In this document: piece after piece, positions 7,186 to 15,185 of the stretch
Numbering within the stretch: position 1 is the stretch's first letter
Layout: each line of letters starts with the position of its first letter
Origin: a virus
Virus record (IMG/VR): IMGVR_UViG_3300044692_000025
Span: 1 to 49,561 of that record
Reading direction: 5' to 3' (one strand)
DNA length: 49,561 nucleotides
The notes under the pieces: model-generated
The model's input: only the letters and a program-made list of their open reading frames with translations
Databases searched by the model: none
What the model was told of the DNA's origin: nothing
Made by a program: the position numbers and the translations under genes

Positions 7186-8676
7186 ATGACGGTGGCTGAC
7201 GCACCCAACCCACTCCTTGGACGCGAATACCTGCGCGTATCCAAGGACAAGTCCGGCCGGGGCCGCTCCCCCAACCAGCAGCACGACGACAACATGCCCG
7301 TGGCCACCGAGATGGGCATCACCCTGATCTACCCGGCATACCGAGACGATGACCGCTCGGCCAGCCGGCACGCGAGGAAGATCCGCGAGGACTTCGGCCG
7401 GTTGATCGCCGACCTGGAGGCCGACCAGTTCGGCGCCAGGGTGCTCGTGCTGTGGGAATCCAGCCGTGGCAGCCGGCAGGTCGAGGAGTGGGTCCAGCTG
7501 CTGAAGCTCCTGCGGGCGCGCCGGGTGAAGATCCTCGTCACGACGCACCGGCGCCTGTACGACCCGGCGTTGCCCCGTGACTGGCGCAGTCTGATGGACG
7601 ACGCGGTGGAAAGCGAATACCAGTCCGACGAGACCCACCTGCGGGTGCTGCGGGACGTGGCGGCGAACGCGGCCGCCGGCCGTCCGCACGCCGTGGCGAA
7701 CTTCGGGTTCAAACGGATCTACGACGACCGGTCGGGGGAACTGCTGGAGCAGGTCGCTGACCCGGTCGAGGCGCCGCTGGTTGCGGAGATGTTCGAGCGG
7801 ATGGACAGGGGCGAGTCGATCCGGTCCATCGAACGAGACTGGGAGCGGCGGCAGATCCGGGACCGGTATGGGCGAGGATTCTCTTCGTCGCGGCTGCGGA
7901 AGATGGCTCGCAACCCGGCCTACATCGGGCTGCGGGTGCACGACCCGGACCGCGTGCATCACCCTACGCAGGCCATCCGGCCGGAGTCGCGGGTCGTCAA
8001 GGCGATCTGGCCGCCGCTAGTCGAACGGGAATTGTTCGACCGGGTGCAGGCCATCCTCACCGACCCGGGCAGGCTGACCCGCCGAGGCGGGGACAGTCGG
8101 GCACAGCACCTGTTGAGCATGATCGCGGTGTGCGGGGTGTGCGGCGAGGTAGTCGACCGGACGCGCCGGCAGCGCAAGGACGAGAGCTTCTACACCCGGT
8201 ACCGGTGCAAGACGCGCGGGTGCGTGGTGGTCGACCAGGACTCGTTGGACGCGTTCGCCACGGAGGCGATCTTCGCGTTCGTGGCGAGGCTGGACAACTA
8301 CGGCGGGTTCGTCGAGCGTTCCTCGGCGGACCTGGAGGCCGCGGAGCGGGAGCTGGCCGAGGCGCACGCCGAGCACGAGGAGTTGGCCTCCTTGTCGGTG
8401 CGGCTGGCCGCCCGGATGGAACCGCCGGTCCTGGCGAAGATCGCGCGGCTGGAGTCGGTCGTGGCCGAGTTGCGGGTACCGACCCAGTTGGCCGGCCTGC
8501 TACGGCCAGGCGAGGACATCCGGGCCAGGTGGGCTGATCCGTCGACGCCCATGTCGGTGAAGCGGTCGTTCGCGCGGGCGGTGTTCAGCGCGTCGATGCT
8601 CGGAACTTTGGCCGTGCTCCCCCAGTCGGAGCGCGGCGGCCCGGTCGGTGACCGGGTGGAGTTCCGCACGTCGTGA
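7186..8676 (+). CDS. int: Large serine recombinase (phage integrase)
   Basis: 496 residues. The resolvase domain carries the catalytic YLRVS motif (nucleophile Ser19, with Arg17) and the conserved downstream part (LVLWESSRGSR, EYQSDETHLRVLRDVAANAAAGRPHAVANFGF). A recombinase domain follows (about 180-300), then a zinc ribbon with C316, C319, C341 and C346, and a coiled coil (DLEAAERELAEAHAEHEEL). Length and domain order are typical of phiC31/Bxb1-type integrases that join attP and attB. No clear Shine-Dalgarno is seen before the ATG. Excision would need a recombination directionality factor, not identified here. Confidence 0.96.
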   Translation: MTVADAPNPLLGREYLRVSKDKSGRGRSPNQQHDDNMPVATEMGITLIYPAYRDDDRSASRHARKIREDFGRLIADLEADQFGARVLVLWESSRGSRQVEEWVQLLKLLRARRVKILVTTHRRLYDPALPRDWRSLMDDAVESEYQSDETHLRVLRDVAANAAAGRPHAVANFGFKRIYDDRSGELLEQVADPVEAPLVAEMFERMDRGESIRSIERDWERRQIRDRYGRGFSSSRLRKMARNPAYIGLRVHDPDRVHHPTQAIRPESRVVKAIWPPLVERELFDRVQAILTDPGRLTRRGGDSRAQHLLSMIAVCGVCGEVVDRTRRQRKDESFYTRYRCKTRGCVVVDQDSLDAFATEAIFAFVARLDNYGGFVERSSADLEAAERELAEAHAEHEELASLSVRLAARMEPPVLAKIARLESVVAELRVPTQLAGLLRPGEDIRARWADPSTPMSVKRSFARAVFSASMLGTLAVLPQSERGGPVGDRVEFRTS

Positions 8677-8738: not shown

Positions 8739-9059
8739 CTAGCTGGCGTGCTTGCTTTCGCTGCGCTGGATGATGTCCAGGAGCATCTGGAAGCCGGCTT
8801 CGACCTGGGCTGCGTCCAGGTCTGGTACGGCGATCGGCTCCCGGGCGACCTGGATGGACCGGGCGGCCTTGCGGAAGCTCAACTCGATCCTCCATACGAG
8901 CAGCAGGACGGCTCCCGACCAGAACAGGTAGGTGTGGACGGGCACAGGGAGGAACAGATCCCCGTACAGGGCGGACCAGACGACGTCTGCTGTGGCGAGG
9001 GCTGCGGCGCAGGCACCCACAGTACCGAGTGTAGTCGCCATGGAACGAATGGTCGGCAT
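8739..9059 (-). CDS. Membrane protein downstream of the repressor
   Basis: 106 residues from ATG 9059, chosen because CGGAGG lies 9 bases upstream. Two transmembrane helices (about 9-30 and 44-60) are followed by a soluble helical tail (LDAAQVEAGFQMLLDIIQRS). It lies between int and the repressor on the repressor strand, 138 bp after the repressor stop, so it may be expressed in the lysogen. Membrane proteins in this position often mediate superinfection exclusion; no family recognised. Confidence 0.65.
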   Translation of the reverse strand: MPTIRSMATTLGTVGACAAALATADVVWSALYGDLFLPVPVHTYLFWSGAVLLLVWRIELSFRKAARSIQVAREPIAVPDLDAAQVEAGFQMLLDIIQRSESKHAS

Positions 9060-9174
9060 TGAGTGATACCTCCGTAGCTGGTAGTGAGCATGAGCACACC
9101 CGACACCAGCCGTTTCGTTAGGGATCACCATCATGTGACACGGATTCGTTTGGGAATACCCGCACGGGGCAACG

Positions 9175-9191
9175 GTTCTACTCACAGTAGA
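9175..9191 (-). terminator. Small hairpin after the repressor gene
   Basis: TTCTACT/AGTAGAA, a perfect 7-bp stem with a 3-nt loop, lies 7 bp beyond the repressor stop on the minus strand. Too weak to be a confident terminator; it could attenuate transcription into the downstream membrane-protein gene. Confidence 0.3.
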
Positions 9192-9197
9192 ATTCGG

Positions 9198-9692
9198 TTA
9201 CTCCGACGTGTCAAGAAGATCGGAGAGACGTTCATCTGGGACCGCGTCCAGCGTCCGCTTCAGGGTCGCCGTCCACTCTTCCCTGATCGTGTCGAGCAGT
9301 TCCGGGTGCTTTTGGACGACGGCGGCAAAGAGTGCGCGCATGATCTCTTCGCGCTGTTCTGCCGGGCCGCGTCGTCTAGCTGCACTGCCGTTGTCCAACA
9401 CGAACACGGACTCGTCTCCCGTTTCTAGGTAGCGGACAACGGAGTCCTCTGGCCAACCGAAAGCGCGCGCGACCGCCTCGTAGATGGTCGGTCCCACCGG
9501 ATCGCCATTTTCGAGTTTGACGAGGCTACGTAGGCCGACCCGAGCCGACTTGGCGAAGCTTGGTCGCCATTGGTGGCCGGCCGCCTCCCTGGTGCGGATC
9601 ACGATTAGGCCGAGATCCTTCCGGCGGCGTTCCGAGAATTCCTTGGTGTTCGGGCGCTCCGCTGTTGCCACGTGTGCATCATGGCGCACCAT
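9198..9692 (-). CDS. Immunity repressor (XRE-like HTH)
   Basis: 164 residues from ATG 9692; GTG at 9671 is an alternative (157 aa). Neither has a Shine-Dalgarno, so leaderless translation is likely. Residues about 18-80 form an XRE-like helix-turn-helix (SFAKSARVGLRSLVKLENGDPVGPTIYEAVARAFGW); a C-terminal helical domain (EEIMRALFAAVVQKHPELLDTIREEW) probably dimerises. It is divergent from a rightward HTH gene and separated from it by nine GCACCAT-type repeats, the first cluster of which overlaps its own start codon, so autoregulation is expected. Position next to int fits the lysogeny repressor. Confidence 0.8.
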   Translation of the reverse strand: MVRHDAHVATAERPNTKEFSERRRKDLGLIVIRTREAAGHQWRPSFAKSARVGLRSLVKLENGDPVGPTIYEAVARAFGWPEDSVVRYLETGDESVFVLDNGSAARRRGPAEQREEIMRALFAAVVQKHPELLDTIREEWTATLKRTLDAVPDERLSDLLDTSE

Positions 9693-9853
9693 CGCGCACC
9701 ACACCACCTGCCTGGACCAGCGCGACTGGTGCCGGCGCTGCCCCCCGTATGTCCGCGACAGTGTTCGCATGCGTGCACCATAGCGCACCATAACGCATGA
9801 TCGGTACCTTCGTGCATTGACATGCGATGCACCATCGTGCACCATCGTGTCAT
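9676..9853. promoter_or_regulatory. Immunity operator: three triplets of GCACCAT repeats at 10-bp period
   Basis: Related 7-mers start at 9676, 9686, 9696 (GCATCAT, GCACCAT, GCACCAC); at 9775, 9785, 9795 (GCACCAT, GCACCAT, GCATGAT); and at 9829, 9839, 9849 (GCACCAT, GCACCAT, and a degenerate GTCATG). Within each triplet the spacing is exactly 10 bp, one helical turn. The first triplet covers the repressor start. The third lies between a TTGACA (9817-9822) and the start codon of the rightward gene at 9852. This is a direct-repeat operator, unlike the dyad operators of lambda. Confidence 0.8.
9817..9851 (+). promoter_or_regulatory. Probable early rightward promoter
   Basis: A perfect TTGACA at 9817-9822 lies 35 bp upstream of the ATG at 9852. 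The -10 region (about 9840-9845, CACCAT) is poor but overlaps two operator repeats, so repressor binding would occlude it. The downstream gene has no Shine-Dalgarno, consistent with a leaderless early transcript. Confidence 0.5.
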
Positions 9854-10169
9854 GCCCCAAGTCTATGGCAACGCGTGGCGACACTACCGGGCGCGGATGG
9901 ACATCACATCCGACGACGCGGCCGCACTGCTCAAGATCGCCGGGGGAGCGTTGCGTCAGATCGAAACGGGCGTGAAGCCCGCGTCGCTGGCGCTCGCCTA
10001 CCGGGCAGCGCGGCTGTATGGATGCGACGTGTCCGACCTCGTCGCCACCGGCGAGGGCGTGCCGGACGAGCCTCCGAAAAAGAAGGAAGGCGGCAAGGCG
10101 CCCACTCGCCGCAAGGAGAGCACTACCAGGCCGAAGCGTCCGGAACACTCCGAGGCGATCGCGTCATGA
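9852..10169 (+). CDS. Cro-like XRE helix-turn-helix protein, first early gene
   Basis: 105 residues from ATG 9852; an upstream in-frame start would run through the operator. Residues about 5-65 form an XRE domain (WRHYRARMDITSDDAAALLKIAGGALRQIETG ... ARLYGCDVSDL). The C-terminus is a basic, Lys/Arg-rich tail. It is divergent from the repressor and starts the long early operon, the position of Cro; its stop overlaps the next start (ATGA). Confidence 0.78.
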   Translation: MPQVYGNAWRHYRARMDITSDDAAALLKIAGGALRQIETGVKPASLALAYRAARLYGCDVSDLVATGEGVPDEPPKKKEGGKAPTRRKESTTRPKRPEHSEAIAS

Positions 10170-10354
10170 CCACCCTCGACGACCACCCGATGTATGACGA
10201 CCCCGAGCGATGGCCACACCTGAAGTTCCTCACGCGCTCGGACATCGCCAAGGCGCGTGCTGCGGCTGCCGCCTCTCCGCCCTTTGACCACGAGACGCTG
10301 CGCCGGCTCGCTGCGAGCCTGCCGCCCGTCGAGGCACGGCGGGGTGCGGCATGA
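10166..10354 (+). CDS. Small hypothetical protein (62 aa)
   Basis: ATG overlaps the Cro-like stop, and its stop overlaps the antirepressor start (ATGA both). Mainly helical, with two predicted helices (RSDIAKARAAAAA and ETLRRLAASL) after an aromatic N-terminus (MYDDPERWPHLKF). No domain recognised; perhaps a partner of the flanking regulators. Confidence 0.7.
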   Translation: MTTLDDHPMYDDPERWPHLKFLTRSDIAKARAAAAASPPFDHETLRRLAASLPPVEARRGAA

Positions 10355-11106
10355 GCGACCTGATCCCGTTCGACATCGACGGCGCCGGCTGCCGGTTCGG
10401 CAAGGACGACGACGGCACGGCGTGGGTCGTCGCATCGGACTTCGCCAAGCTCATGGGTTACCGCGATGCCCGCGATGCCGCCCGCCTGCTCGATGACGGC
10501 GAGAAGGGTACGCAGATTGTGCGTACCCCTGGCGGCGATCAGCGGATGACCATCTTCTACGAGGACGGCATCTGGGAGCTGATCTTCCGCTCGACGCTGC
10601 CGGCCGCCAAGGCGATCAAGTCGCGCGTGAAGGCGATCCTCCGGGAGATCCGGGAGACCGGCCGGTACGCCGTCGACTCGGCATACGAGATCCCGAAGGA
10701 CTACCCGTCCGCGCTGGAGCTGGCCGCCCGGATGGCCCGTGAACTGGAGACGGCTGAACGGCGGGCCGCCGAGCTGGAGCCGGCCGCGAGGTCGTGGACC
10801 GAGCTGGCTGATGCGGGCGGGGACTTCTCGCTCCGTGAGGCCGCGCAGATCCTGCGCCGGTCGGGCGTGGACACCGGACAGAACCGGCTGTCCCGCTACC
10901 TGAAGGAGATCGGCTGGACCGACAAGTCCGGCCAGCCCTACCAGTCCCAGGTCGACGCGGGCCGGCTGGTCCGCCGTGCGACCGGTGGCTACGACACCTC
11001 GTCGGGCGAACACGTCGCGACGTGGCAGCTGCGGATCACCCCGAAGGGCGTGGCCGAACTGCACCGACTGATGGGCGGCGGCGGTCCGCTGCTGCTCGCG
11101 GTCTGA
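10351..11106 (+). CDS. Phage antirepressor (BRO-N and KilA-C domains)
   Basis: 251 residues. The N-terminal ~100 residues match the BRO-N DNA-binding domain (WVVASDFAKLMGYRDARDAARLLDDGEKG, YEDGIWELIFRSTLPAAKAIKSRVKAILREIRETG). A helical linker (ALELAARMARELETAERRAAELE) leads to a KilA-C (ANT) domain (FSLREAAQILRRSG..., RLSRYLKEIGW). Such proteins antagonise repressors or act as early regulators. ATGA overlap with the gene before. Confidence 0.93.
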   Translation: MSDLIPFDIDGAGCRFGKDDDGTAWVVASDFAKLMGYRDARDAARLLDDGEKGTQIVRTPGGDQRMTIFYEDGIWELIFRSTLPAAKAIKSRVKAILREIRETGRYAVDSAYEIPKDYPSALELAARMARELETAERRAAELEPAARSWTELADAGGDFSLREAAQILRRSGVDTGQNRLSRYLKEIGWTDKSGQPYQSQVDAGRLVRRATGGYDTSSGEHVATWQLRITPKGVAELHRLMGGGGPLLLAV

Positions 11107-14278: not shown

Positions 14279-14445
14279 ACCGCGTCGTGCTGGTCCTCGC
14301 CTCGCACCCGGACTGCTGCGAGGTGTGCGGCGGGAAGCCGGTGGCGATCAGCGCGCCGGGCCAGGCGGTCGCCCAGCCGGTGCCATGCCTGCACTGCAAG
14401 ATCGGTGTGCGGGTGGTCCAGATACCGATGCGGAGTGAACGATGA
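14275..14445 (+). CDS. Small zinc-ribbon protein (56 aa)
   Basis: GTG overlaps the previous stop and the stop overlaps the next ATG. Two Cys pairs (CCEVC and CLHC) about 25 residues apart form a zinc ribbon. Function unknown. Confidence 0.65.
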   Translation: MNRVVLVLASHPDCCEVCGGKPVAISAPGQAVAQPVPCLHCKIGVRVVQIPMRSER

Positions 14446-15185
14446 GCGACAACAGCGGCATCGAGTGGACCGAGACGACCTGGAACCCGACCACCGGATG
14501 TGACCGGATCTCGGCTGGCTGCGACAACTGCTACGCCCTCACCCTGGCTAAGCGCCTCAAGGCCATGGGGTCCGCGAAGTACCAGGCCGACGGCGACCCG
14601 CGCACCAGCGGCCCCGGATTCGGCGTCACCGTGCATAACGACGCGCTCGACGCACCTTTGCACTGGCGCAAGCGCCGCACGGTGTTCGTCAACTCCATGT
14701 CCGACCTGTTCCACGCCAAGGTCCCCACCTCGTTCGTCCAGCGCGTGTTCGAGGTGATGGCCGCGACGCCGCAGCACACCTACCAGGTGCTCACCAAGCG
14801 CGCCCGGCGGTTGGCCAGGTTGGCACCAACCATGGAGTGGCCGGCCAACGTGTGGATGGGCGTCTCCGTGGAGAACAGCGACGTGCTGCACCGCGTGGAC
14901 GAACTCCGCACGGTGCCGGCCGCGGTGCGGTTCCTGTCCTGCGAACCCCTCCTCGGCCCGCTCGACAGGCTGGACCTCGACGGGATCGGCTGGGTCATCG
15001 TCGGCGGCGAGTCCGGACCGCACGCCCGCCCGGTCGCCGCCGAGTGGATCACTAACATCCGGGACGCCTGCAACGACCACGAGGTGCCGTTCTTCTTCAA
15101 GCAGTGGGGCGGCTTCACCCCGAAGGCCAACGGCCGCGATCTGGACGGACGTACCTGGGACGAGTACCCGGCGGGTGCGGTGTGA
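14442..15185 (+). CDS. DUF5131 (phage Gp37/Gp68) family protein
   Basis: 247 residues, ATGA overlap with the gene before. The N-terminus (IEWTETTWNPTTGC) and the Cys motif C20-X6-C27-X2-C30 are diagnostic of the DUF5131/Gp37-Gp68 phage family, with conserved VFVNSMSDLFH, YQVLTKRA, WMGVSVEN, RFLSCEPLLGP, GGESGP and PFFFKQWGG segments. The cysteines and fold suggest an iron-sulfur, radical-SAM-like enzyme; its reaction is not established. It is widespread in phages and prophages. Confidence 0.92.
   Translation: MSDNSGIEWTETTWNPTTGCDRISAGCDNCYALTLAKRLKAMGSAKYQADGDPRTSGPGFGVTVHNDALDAPLHWRKRRTVFVNSMSDLFHAKVPTSFVQRVFEVMAATPQHTYQVLTKRARRLARLAPTMEWPANVWMGVSVENSDVLHRVDELRTVPAAVRFLSCEPLLGPLDRLDLDGIGWVIVGGESGPHARPVAAEWITNIRDACNDHEVPFFFKQWGGFTPKANGRDLDGRTWDEYPAGAV

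Follow-up and report, generated by a model that had tools for sequence, protein, structure and literature searches.

How is the lysogeny switch of a phage read if its operators appear to consist of tandem direct repeats? Textbook phage switches mostly comprise symmetric operators and dimeric repressors. In the CI-Cro systems of lambda and 434, divergent repressor and Cro genes are controlled by three groups of operators lying over both promoters, whose dyads are bound by dimers. The window analyzed here, i.e., the whole stretch of 49,561 bases making up a complete virus record (IMGVR_UViG_3300044692_000025), resembles them in its divergent repressor and Cro-like genes and in its three operator groups, but differs in that a direct-repeat structure of the operators is favoured. 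A reading of this DNA made from the letters alone (the sequence-only reading) had proposed an immunity operator composed of nine 7-bp words in three helically phased triplets. We reexamined this proposal by analysis of the arrays, their neighbourhood and two related phages.

Organization of the control region

Three arrays were identified between the divergent repressor and Cro-like early genes (Table 1). Eight of the nine proposed words were confirmed with an exact spacing of 10 bp. Array A contains GCATCAT (9676), GCACCAT (9686) and GCACCAC (9696), array B GCACCAT (9775 and 9785) and GCATGAT (9795; 5/7 matches), and array C two copies of GCACCAT (9829 and 9839). The ninth word, proposed at position 9849, had to be abandoned. 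The letters at this position (GTCATGC) agree with the consensus in 1/7 nucleotides and represent the region of the start codon; hence, the third triplet is a pair and the arrays comprise three, three and two words. One triplet had also been thought to cover the start codon of the repressor gene. This applies only if the ATG at 9690-9692 is used, while the GTG at 9669-9671, located just beyond array A, is the likelier start. With the latter, array A would cover the -10 region of the gene.

Table 1. Coordinates of genes, arrays and inferred promoter elements in the window
Feature	Position	Strand	Description
Large serine integrase	7186..8676	+	Pfam Recombinase and Resolvase; PHROG integrase 1.4e-58
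Repressor gene	9198..9671	-	157 aa from GTG start; 164 aa if ATG at 9692 used
Inferred repressor promoter end	9669..9683	-	CATGAT -10 (9683-9678), 6 nt, GTG 9671-9669; leaderless
Array A	9675..9704	+	three 10-bp units TGCATCATGG CGCACCATCG CGCACCACAC; over likely repressor -10 region
Array B	9774..9803	+	three 10-bp units TGCACCATAG CGCACCATAA CGCATGATCG; -78 to -49 of early promoter
Inferred early promoter	9817..9845	+	TTGACA 9817-9822, 17-bp spacer, CACCAT 9840-9845, 6 bp, ATG 9852-9854; leaderless
Array C	9828..9847	+	two 10-bp units TGCACCATCG TGCACCATCG; the -10 element of the early promoter corresponds to the second word
Cro-like early gene	9852..10169	+	105 aa, XRE-type HTH, basic tail
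Antirepressor (Bro-N + KilAC)	10351..11106	+	Pfam ANT 3.4e-16, Bro-N 1.4e-12; PHROG anti-repressor 2.5e-51

The repressor did not yield any Pfam match. Its structure was modelled with AlphaFold using an alignment of three rows, which gave a usable model (pLDDT 70.5), while an alignment of only two rows was too poor (43.7). An XRE-type five-helix domain was predicted for residues 8-88, followed by a low-confidence linker (about 91-102) and a helical C-terminal domain. The structure closest to the model was 2ofy, an XRE regulator of Rhodococcus (Z 10.6). The Cro-like protein was matched by the Pfam families HTH_31 (E 1.6e-5, just under the family cut-off) and HTH_3 (E 4.8e-5). Relatives of the repressor were not found in annotated phage or plasmid records, nor were relatives of the Cro-like protein in annotated phage records, and scans of genome contigs did not disclose any relative of the two regulators. 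The antirepressor gene is followed by genes encoding a single-strand annealing protein and a WhiB-like protein, the latter of which points to a phage of actinobacteria. An open reading frame at 14442-15185 (+) revealed a very strong match to PHROG 2045 (E 2.1e-96), a family of unknown function.

Occurrence of the words by chance and in the rest of the genome

Within the 178 bp of the control region, one strand harbored seven words with at most one mismatch, five of which were exact copies of GCACCAT. In 600 dinucleotide shuffles of this sequence, the maxima were six words with at most one mismatch and three exact words, each reached once. Unbiased autocorrelation of the control region showed a peak at lag 10 (21 matches vs 0.26 expected), and genome-wide, word pairs at a spacing of 10 occurred four times compared to 0.3 in shuffles. 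The search of the remaining genome that had been recommended together with the original proposal was carried out, and neither a further GCACCAT-NNN-GCACCAT pair nor a comparable array was found in the rest of the 49.6-kb record. A random frequency of the word throughout the genome, which had been named as an argument against the operator, was indeed observed for loose single words elsewhere in the record (146 vs 157 expected), but the phased arrays were confined to the control region. The special feature of the locus is the phased clusters only, not the loose single words.

Conservation of the arrays in a related prophage

By help of the window repressor, a related prophage was found (L003, IMGVR_UViG_2899332677_000002). 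Outside of the cassette, few proteins are common to L003 and the window, and these are weakly similar. L003 contains three arrays at places matching those of the window. Arrays A and B are identical in 24/30 and 23/30 positions, respectively, and the segment from array C to the start codon in 26/27 bases. The distances of the arrays (98 vs 99 bp between A and B, 53 vs 54 bp between B and C) agree within 1 bp. By contrast, identity within the A-B spacer (22/68) corresponded to the random level determined by shuffling (22.1). Thus, the arrays (77-96% identical) and their distances have been kept, in contrast to the sequence separating A from B. The conservation of array C is partly attributable to the promoter inside it. 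The Cro-like proteins of the window and L003 are 52% identical. A stretch located upstream of and over the -35 element (9803-9822, TCGTGCATTGACATG) shows 100% identity between the window and L003, even at the bases outside of the hexamer, and pairing of this stretch with array C at a lag of 25 bp was seen in both genomes. A third phage with a GCACCAT-type word was found neither by operator DNA patterns nor by either regulator protein, so that two phages are known to contain this word, while a variant word occurs in the phage described below.

Exchange of the specificity cassette

The second related phage (L011, IMGVR_UViG_2517287020_000001) is a sister of L003 as judged by collinear flanking genes. 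The repressors of these two phages are nearly the same in their tails (43/49 identical residues) but not in their HTH domains (9/43), and a similar partition was observed for the Cro-like proteins, which share 18/27 residues of the basic tail and 14/51 of the HTH. The window and L003 showed the reverse picture, with 29/43 identical residues in the repressor HTH, 36/51 in the Cro-like HTH and only 8/38 in the repressor tail. Neither the L003 nor the L011 repressor had a relative in annotated phage records. In the L011 control region a different word, TGCGnnnnn (TGCGnnnnnTGC), forms direct tandem repeats with a period of 9 bp. The 5.2 kb of L011 contain five TGCG-TGC pairs with this spacing, four of which reside at three places inside the control region; in the unbiased autocorrelation, lag 9 gave a modest signal (P about 0.05 when all lags are considered). 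Since the window and L003 share HTH domains and operators, while L003 and L011 have similar tails but different HTH domains and words, the operators go together with the HTH domains of the repressor and the Cro-like protein. L003 and L011, which have tails and flanks in common and differ in HTH domains and operator words, show that the cassette has been exchanged as a unit. This linkage is what would be expected for an immunity-specificity cassette. Within the control region of L011 (about 2776-2990), the sequence CTGCATAC(A/G)TGG was found to precede both divergent starts, which makes the start regions of the early and repressor genes near mirror copies of each other.

Inferred promoters

In L003 the geometry of the inferred early promoter is the same as in the window, and in L011 the corresponding sequence is TTGACT-16-TAATCT-6-ATG. 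For the repressor genes of L003 and L011, TATGGT-6-GTG and CATCCT-6-GTG were identified, respectively. A clear -35 element was not seen at the repressor promoter, and CACCAT, the putative -10 element of the early promoter, is poor by consensus. All six inferred -10 elements have A at the second and T at the last position, as in the mycobacterial TANNNT motif. Among TANNNT promoters of Mycobacterium tuberculosis, leaderless ones are common (PMC3898074). In the window and in L003 the inferred -10 elements are situated inside words, so that occupancy of the words would block both promoters. The layout thus corresponds to a repressor/Cro switch, with divergent HTH regulators and operators over both inferred promoters. 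On the minus strand, array B also yields the sequence TATGGT-6 nt-ATG (9768-9780; ATG 9770-9768) in the repressor frame. This ATG is a possible second leaderless start, which would add 33 residues before the GTG; L003 does not have a start codon at this place.

Direct repeats or dyads

The words had been interpreted as direct repeats and not as dyads. Because GTGCAC is self-palindromic, the arrays can also be read as overlapping 14-bp dyads (YGCAC-CATN-GYGCA), each bound by a symmetric repressor dimer as in 434 or lambda, or, in a variant of this model, by tandem dimers as in the controller proteins of restriction-modification systems. The 10-bp period would then reflect the distance between half-sites located in successive major grooves. 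The perfect dyad TGCACCATCGTGCA (TGCAC-CATC-GTGCA, 9828-9841) is present in the window and in L003 and is the sole perfect TGCAC-N4-GTGCA of either genome, and in array C overlapping dyads fit nearly as well as direct repeats. Moreover, four of the seven dyad pairs (1, 2, 3 and 7) are symmetric in 8-10 of 10 sites, and the fold neighbours of the repressor include C.Esp1396I, a binder of tandem dyads (a tetramer on 35-bp DNA according to the PDB title). On the other hand, the conserved columns follow the direct repeat. In the 16 units of the window and L003, the core columns are conserved in 13-16 cases, while in the dyad reading the mate of position 6 is retained in 1/10 sites, that of position 4 in 4/10 and that of position 5 in 6/10. 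Pair 6/9 is symmetric in one and pair 4/11 in four of ten sites, yet position 6 is a C in 14/16 units. End units, for which a half-site would be enough under the dyad model, retain CCA(T) even where the right half is lacking, and CCAT was still matched at 11/16 positions (P 0.0003 to 0.004). Finally, the 9-bp words of L011 (TGCGCAAAC-TGCGTAATC) are direct. The period of 10 bp and the conserved columns thus describe asymmetric direct words spaced by one turn. We therefore regard the dyad model as rather unlikely, albeit a serious competitor, and favour the direct-repeat reading on the basis of the column pattern; an operator composed of one-turn direct repeats is probable. The original distinction stands insofar as the conservation follows the direct repeats, but the arrays do read as overlapping dyads too.

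Function of the arrays

The assignment as immunity operator is well supported by the context: the arrays lie between the genes of an XRE-type repressor and a Cro-like protein, close to a serine integrase and an antirepressor, they have been kept in the otherwise largely different L003, and the cassette is swapped in its sister. The arrays are real and conserved, and most likely represent the immunity operator of the lysogeny switch. With reasonable, though far from full confidence we propose that XRE-type protomers would line up head to tail on the 10-bp units of these switch operators, thereby silencing the early operon and autoregulating the repressor. One HTH protomer of the repressor would read one asymmetric unit (5'-YGCACCATNR-3'), which is probably read by the Cro-like protein too. 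Protomers on adjacent units, one helical turn apart, would bind cooperatively along a single face of the DNA in a putative polymer-like mode. Filling of array C would cover the spacer and the -10 element (word CACCAT) of the early promoter and silence the lytic operon, whereas filling of array A would cover the -10 region of the leaderless repressor gene, resulting in autoregulation. Array B, about five turns away from C, may serve as a third cooperative or bending site, and the downstream antirepressor would relieve repression.

It is improbable that the sole reader of the arrays is the Cro-like protein or an Apl-like, DNA-coating excisionase-like factor, with the repressor acting elsewhere. 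The hallmark of 186 Apl is direct repeats spaced by one turn and located between divergent phage promoters (PMC7498355), and the Cro-like HTH is as conserved between the window and L003 as that of the repressor. However, the scan of six genes around the region did not disclose any winged-helix excisionase, and the phage has a serine-type integrase. Array A overlaps the start region of the repressor gene itself, and in L011 operator and repressor HTH have changed jointly. A chance origin of the repeats, or a coding constraint on the N-terminus of the repressor, is so improbable that it was discarded. In the repressor frame, the letters of array A can be translated (MVRHDAHV), but arrays B and C are outside of the likely repressor gene, autocorrelation and shuffle tests argue against chance, and the arrays, unlike the random spacer between them, are kept in different phages. 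An iteron or partition site is not favoured either, since the arrays are situated between two HTH genes, where they overlap start regions, and since a rep or par gene was not detected among the neighbouring genes scanned.

Comparison with known systems

The head-to-tail arrangement proposed for the window has precedents. Apl of phage 186 binds cooperatively as a monomer per operator to direct repeats one turn apart, as do other excisionases (PMC7498355). At pR-pL of phage 186, as in the window, one-turn direct repeats are located between divergent phage promoters, but Apl, lambda Xis and P2 Cox are excisionases (RDFs), whereas the window encodes an XRE-type repressor and a Cro-like protein in a serine-integrase phage. 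Furthermore, Apl is weakly specific, while the words of the window are tightly conserved. BldC of Streptomyces forms cooperative head-to-tail oligomers on direct repeats with 9 bp per subunit (PMC5859096); it is a MerR-like winged-helix protein, in contrast to the XRE regulators of the window. WhiJ9 of Streptomyces venezuelae, an Xre-type HTH protein, binds direct repeats arranged as a tandem of three, with CGXXCTCAAC as their 10-bp consensus, next to a leaderless gene (PMC10294661). It shares these properties with the window, but is a chromosomal developmental activator with a different word and without a phage switch. The P2 C protein is, like the candidate reader in the window, a phage immunity repressor with direct repeats. 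Its non-palindromic 8-bp repeats flank the -10 region of the early promoter, and the two are 22 bp apart and bound by a dimer (PMC4752584); they do not form a one-turn tandem array. The immunity repressors of cluster A mycobacteriophages read an asymmetric site as a monomer (PMC9283540). Their stoperators are similar to the window in being asymmetric sites of an actinobacterial phage repressor system, but they are single sites scattered genome-wide, while the arrays are clustered in tandem at the switch only. The record does not contain dispersed copies of the paired word, and we rejected stoperators as an explanation.

The contrast to lambda drawn by the sequence-only reading was fair, though one-turn direct repeats are known from 186 Apl, BldC and WhiJ9. 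For this reason the arrays constitute a variant of known direct-repeat operators and not a new principle. The window combines features of Apl, BldC, WhiJ9 and P2 C in one XRE repressor/Cro switch, and the switch of this actinobacterial phage appears to be based on phased direct repeats with an XRE protein as reader. In the open-access literature searched, we did not find a described example of such a switch with one-turn direct repeats in a serine-integrase phage, which is weak evidence of absence. Tentatively, and with more doubt than confidence, the three phages may belong to an immunity class in which the XRE repressor and Cro polymerise head to tail, with word and pitch set by an exchangeable HTH cassette. 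If this is true, the word and the helical pitch (10 bp in the window, 9 bp in the cassette of L011) jointly encode immunity specificity. The phages amount to a natural swap experiment, in which the operator was kept with a different repressor tail and the tail was kept with a different operator. They offer a clean system to study the reading of tandem repeats by HTH proteins and the origin of immunity specificities.

Adjoining the repressor gene, a small hydrophobic open reading frame without any family match was found on the same strand (8739-9185, -). L003 likewise contains a membrane-like open reading frame behind its repressor gene. The reading frame of the window is possibly a lysogenic or superinfection-exclusion gene.
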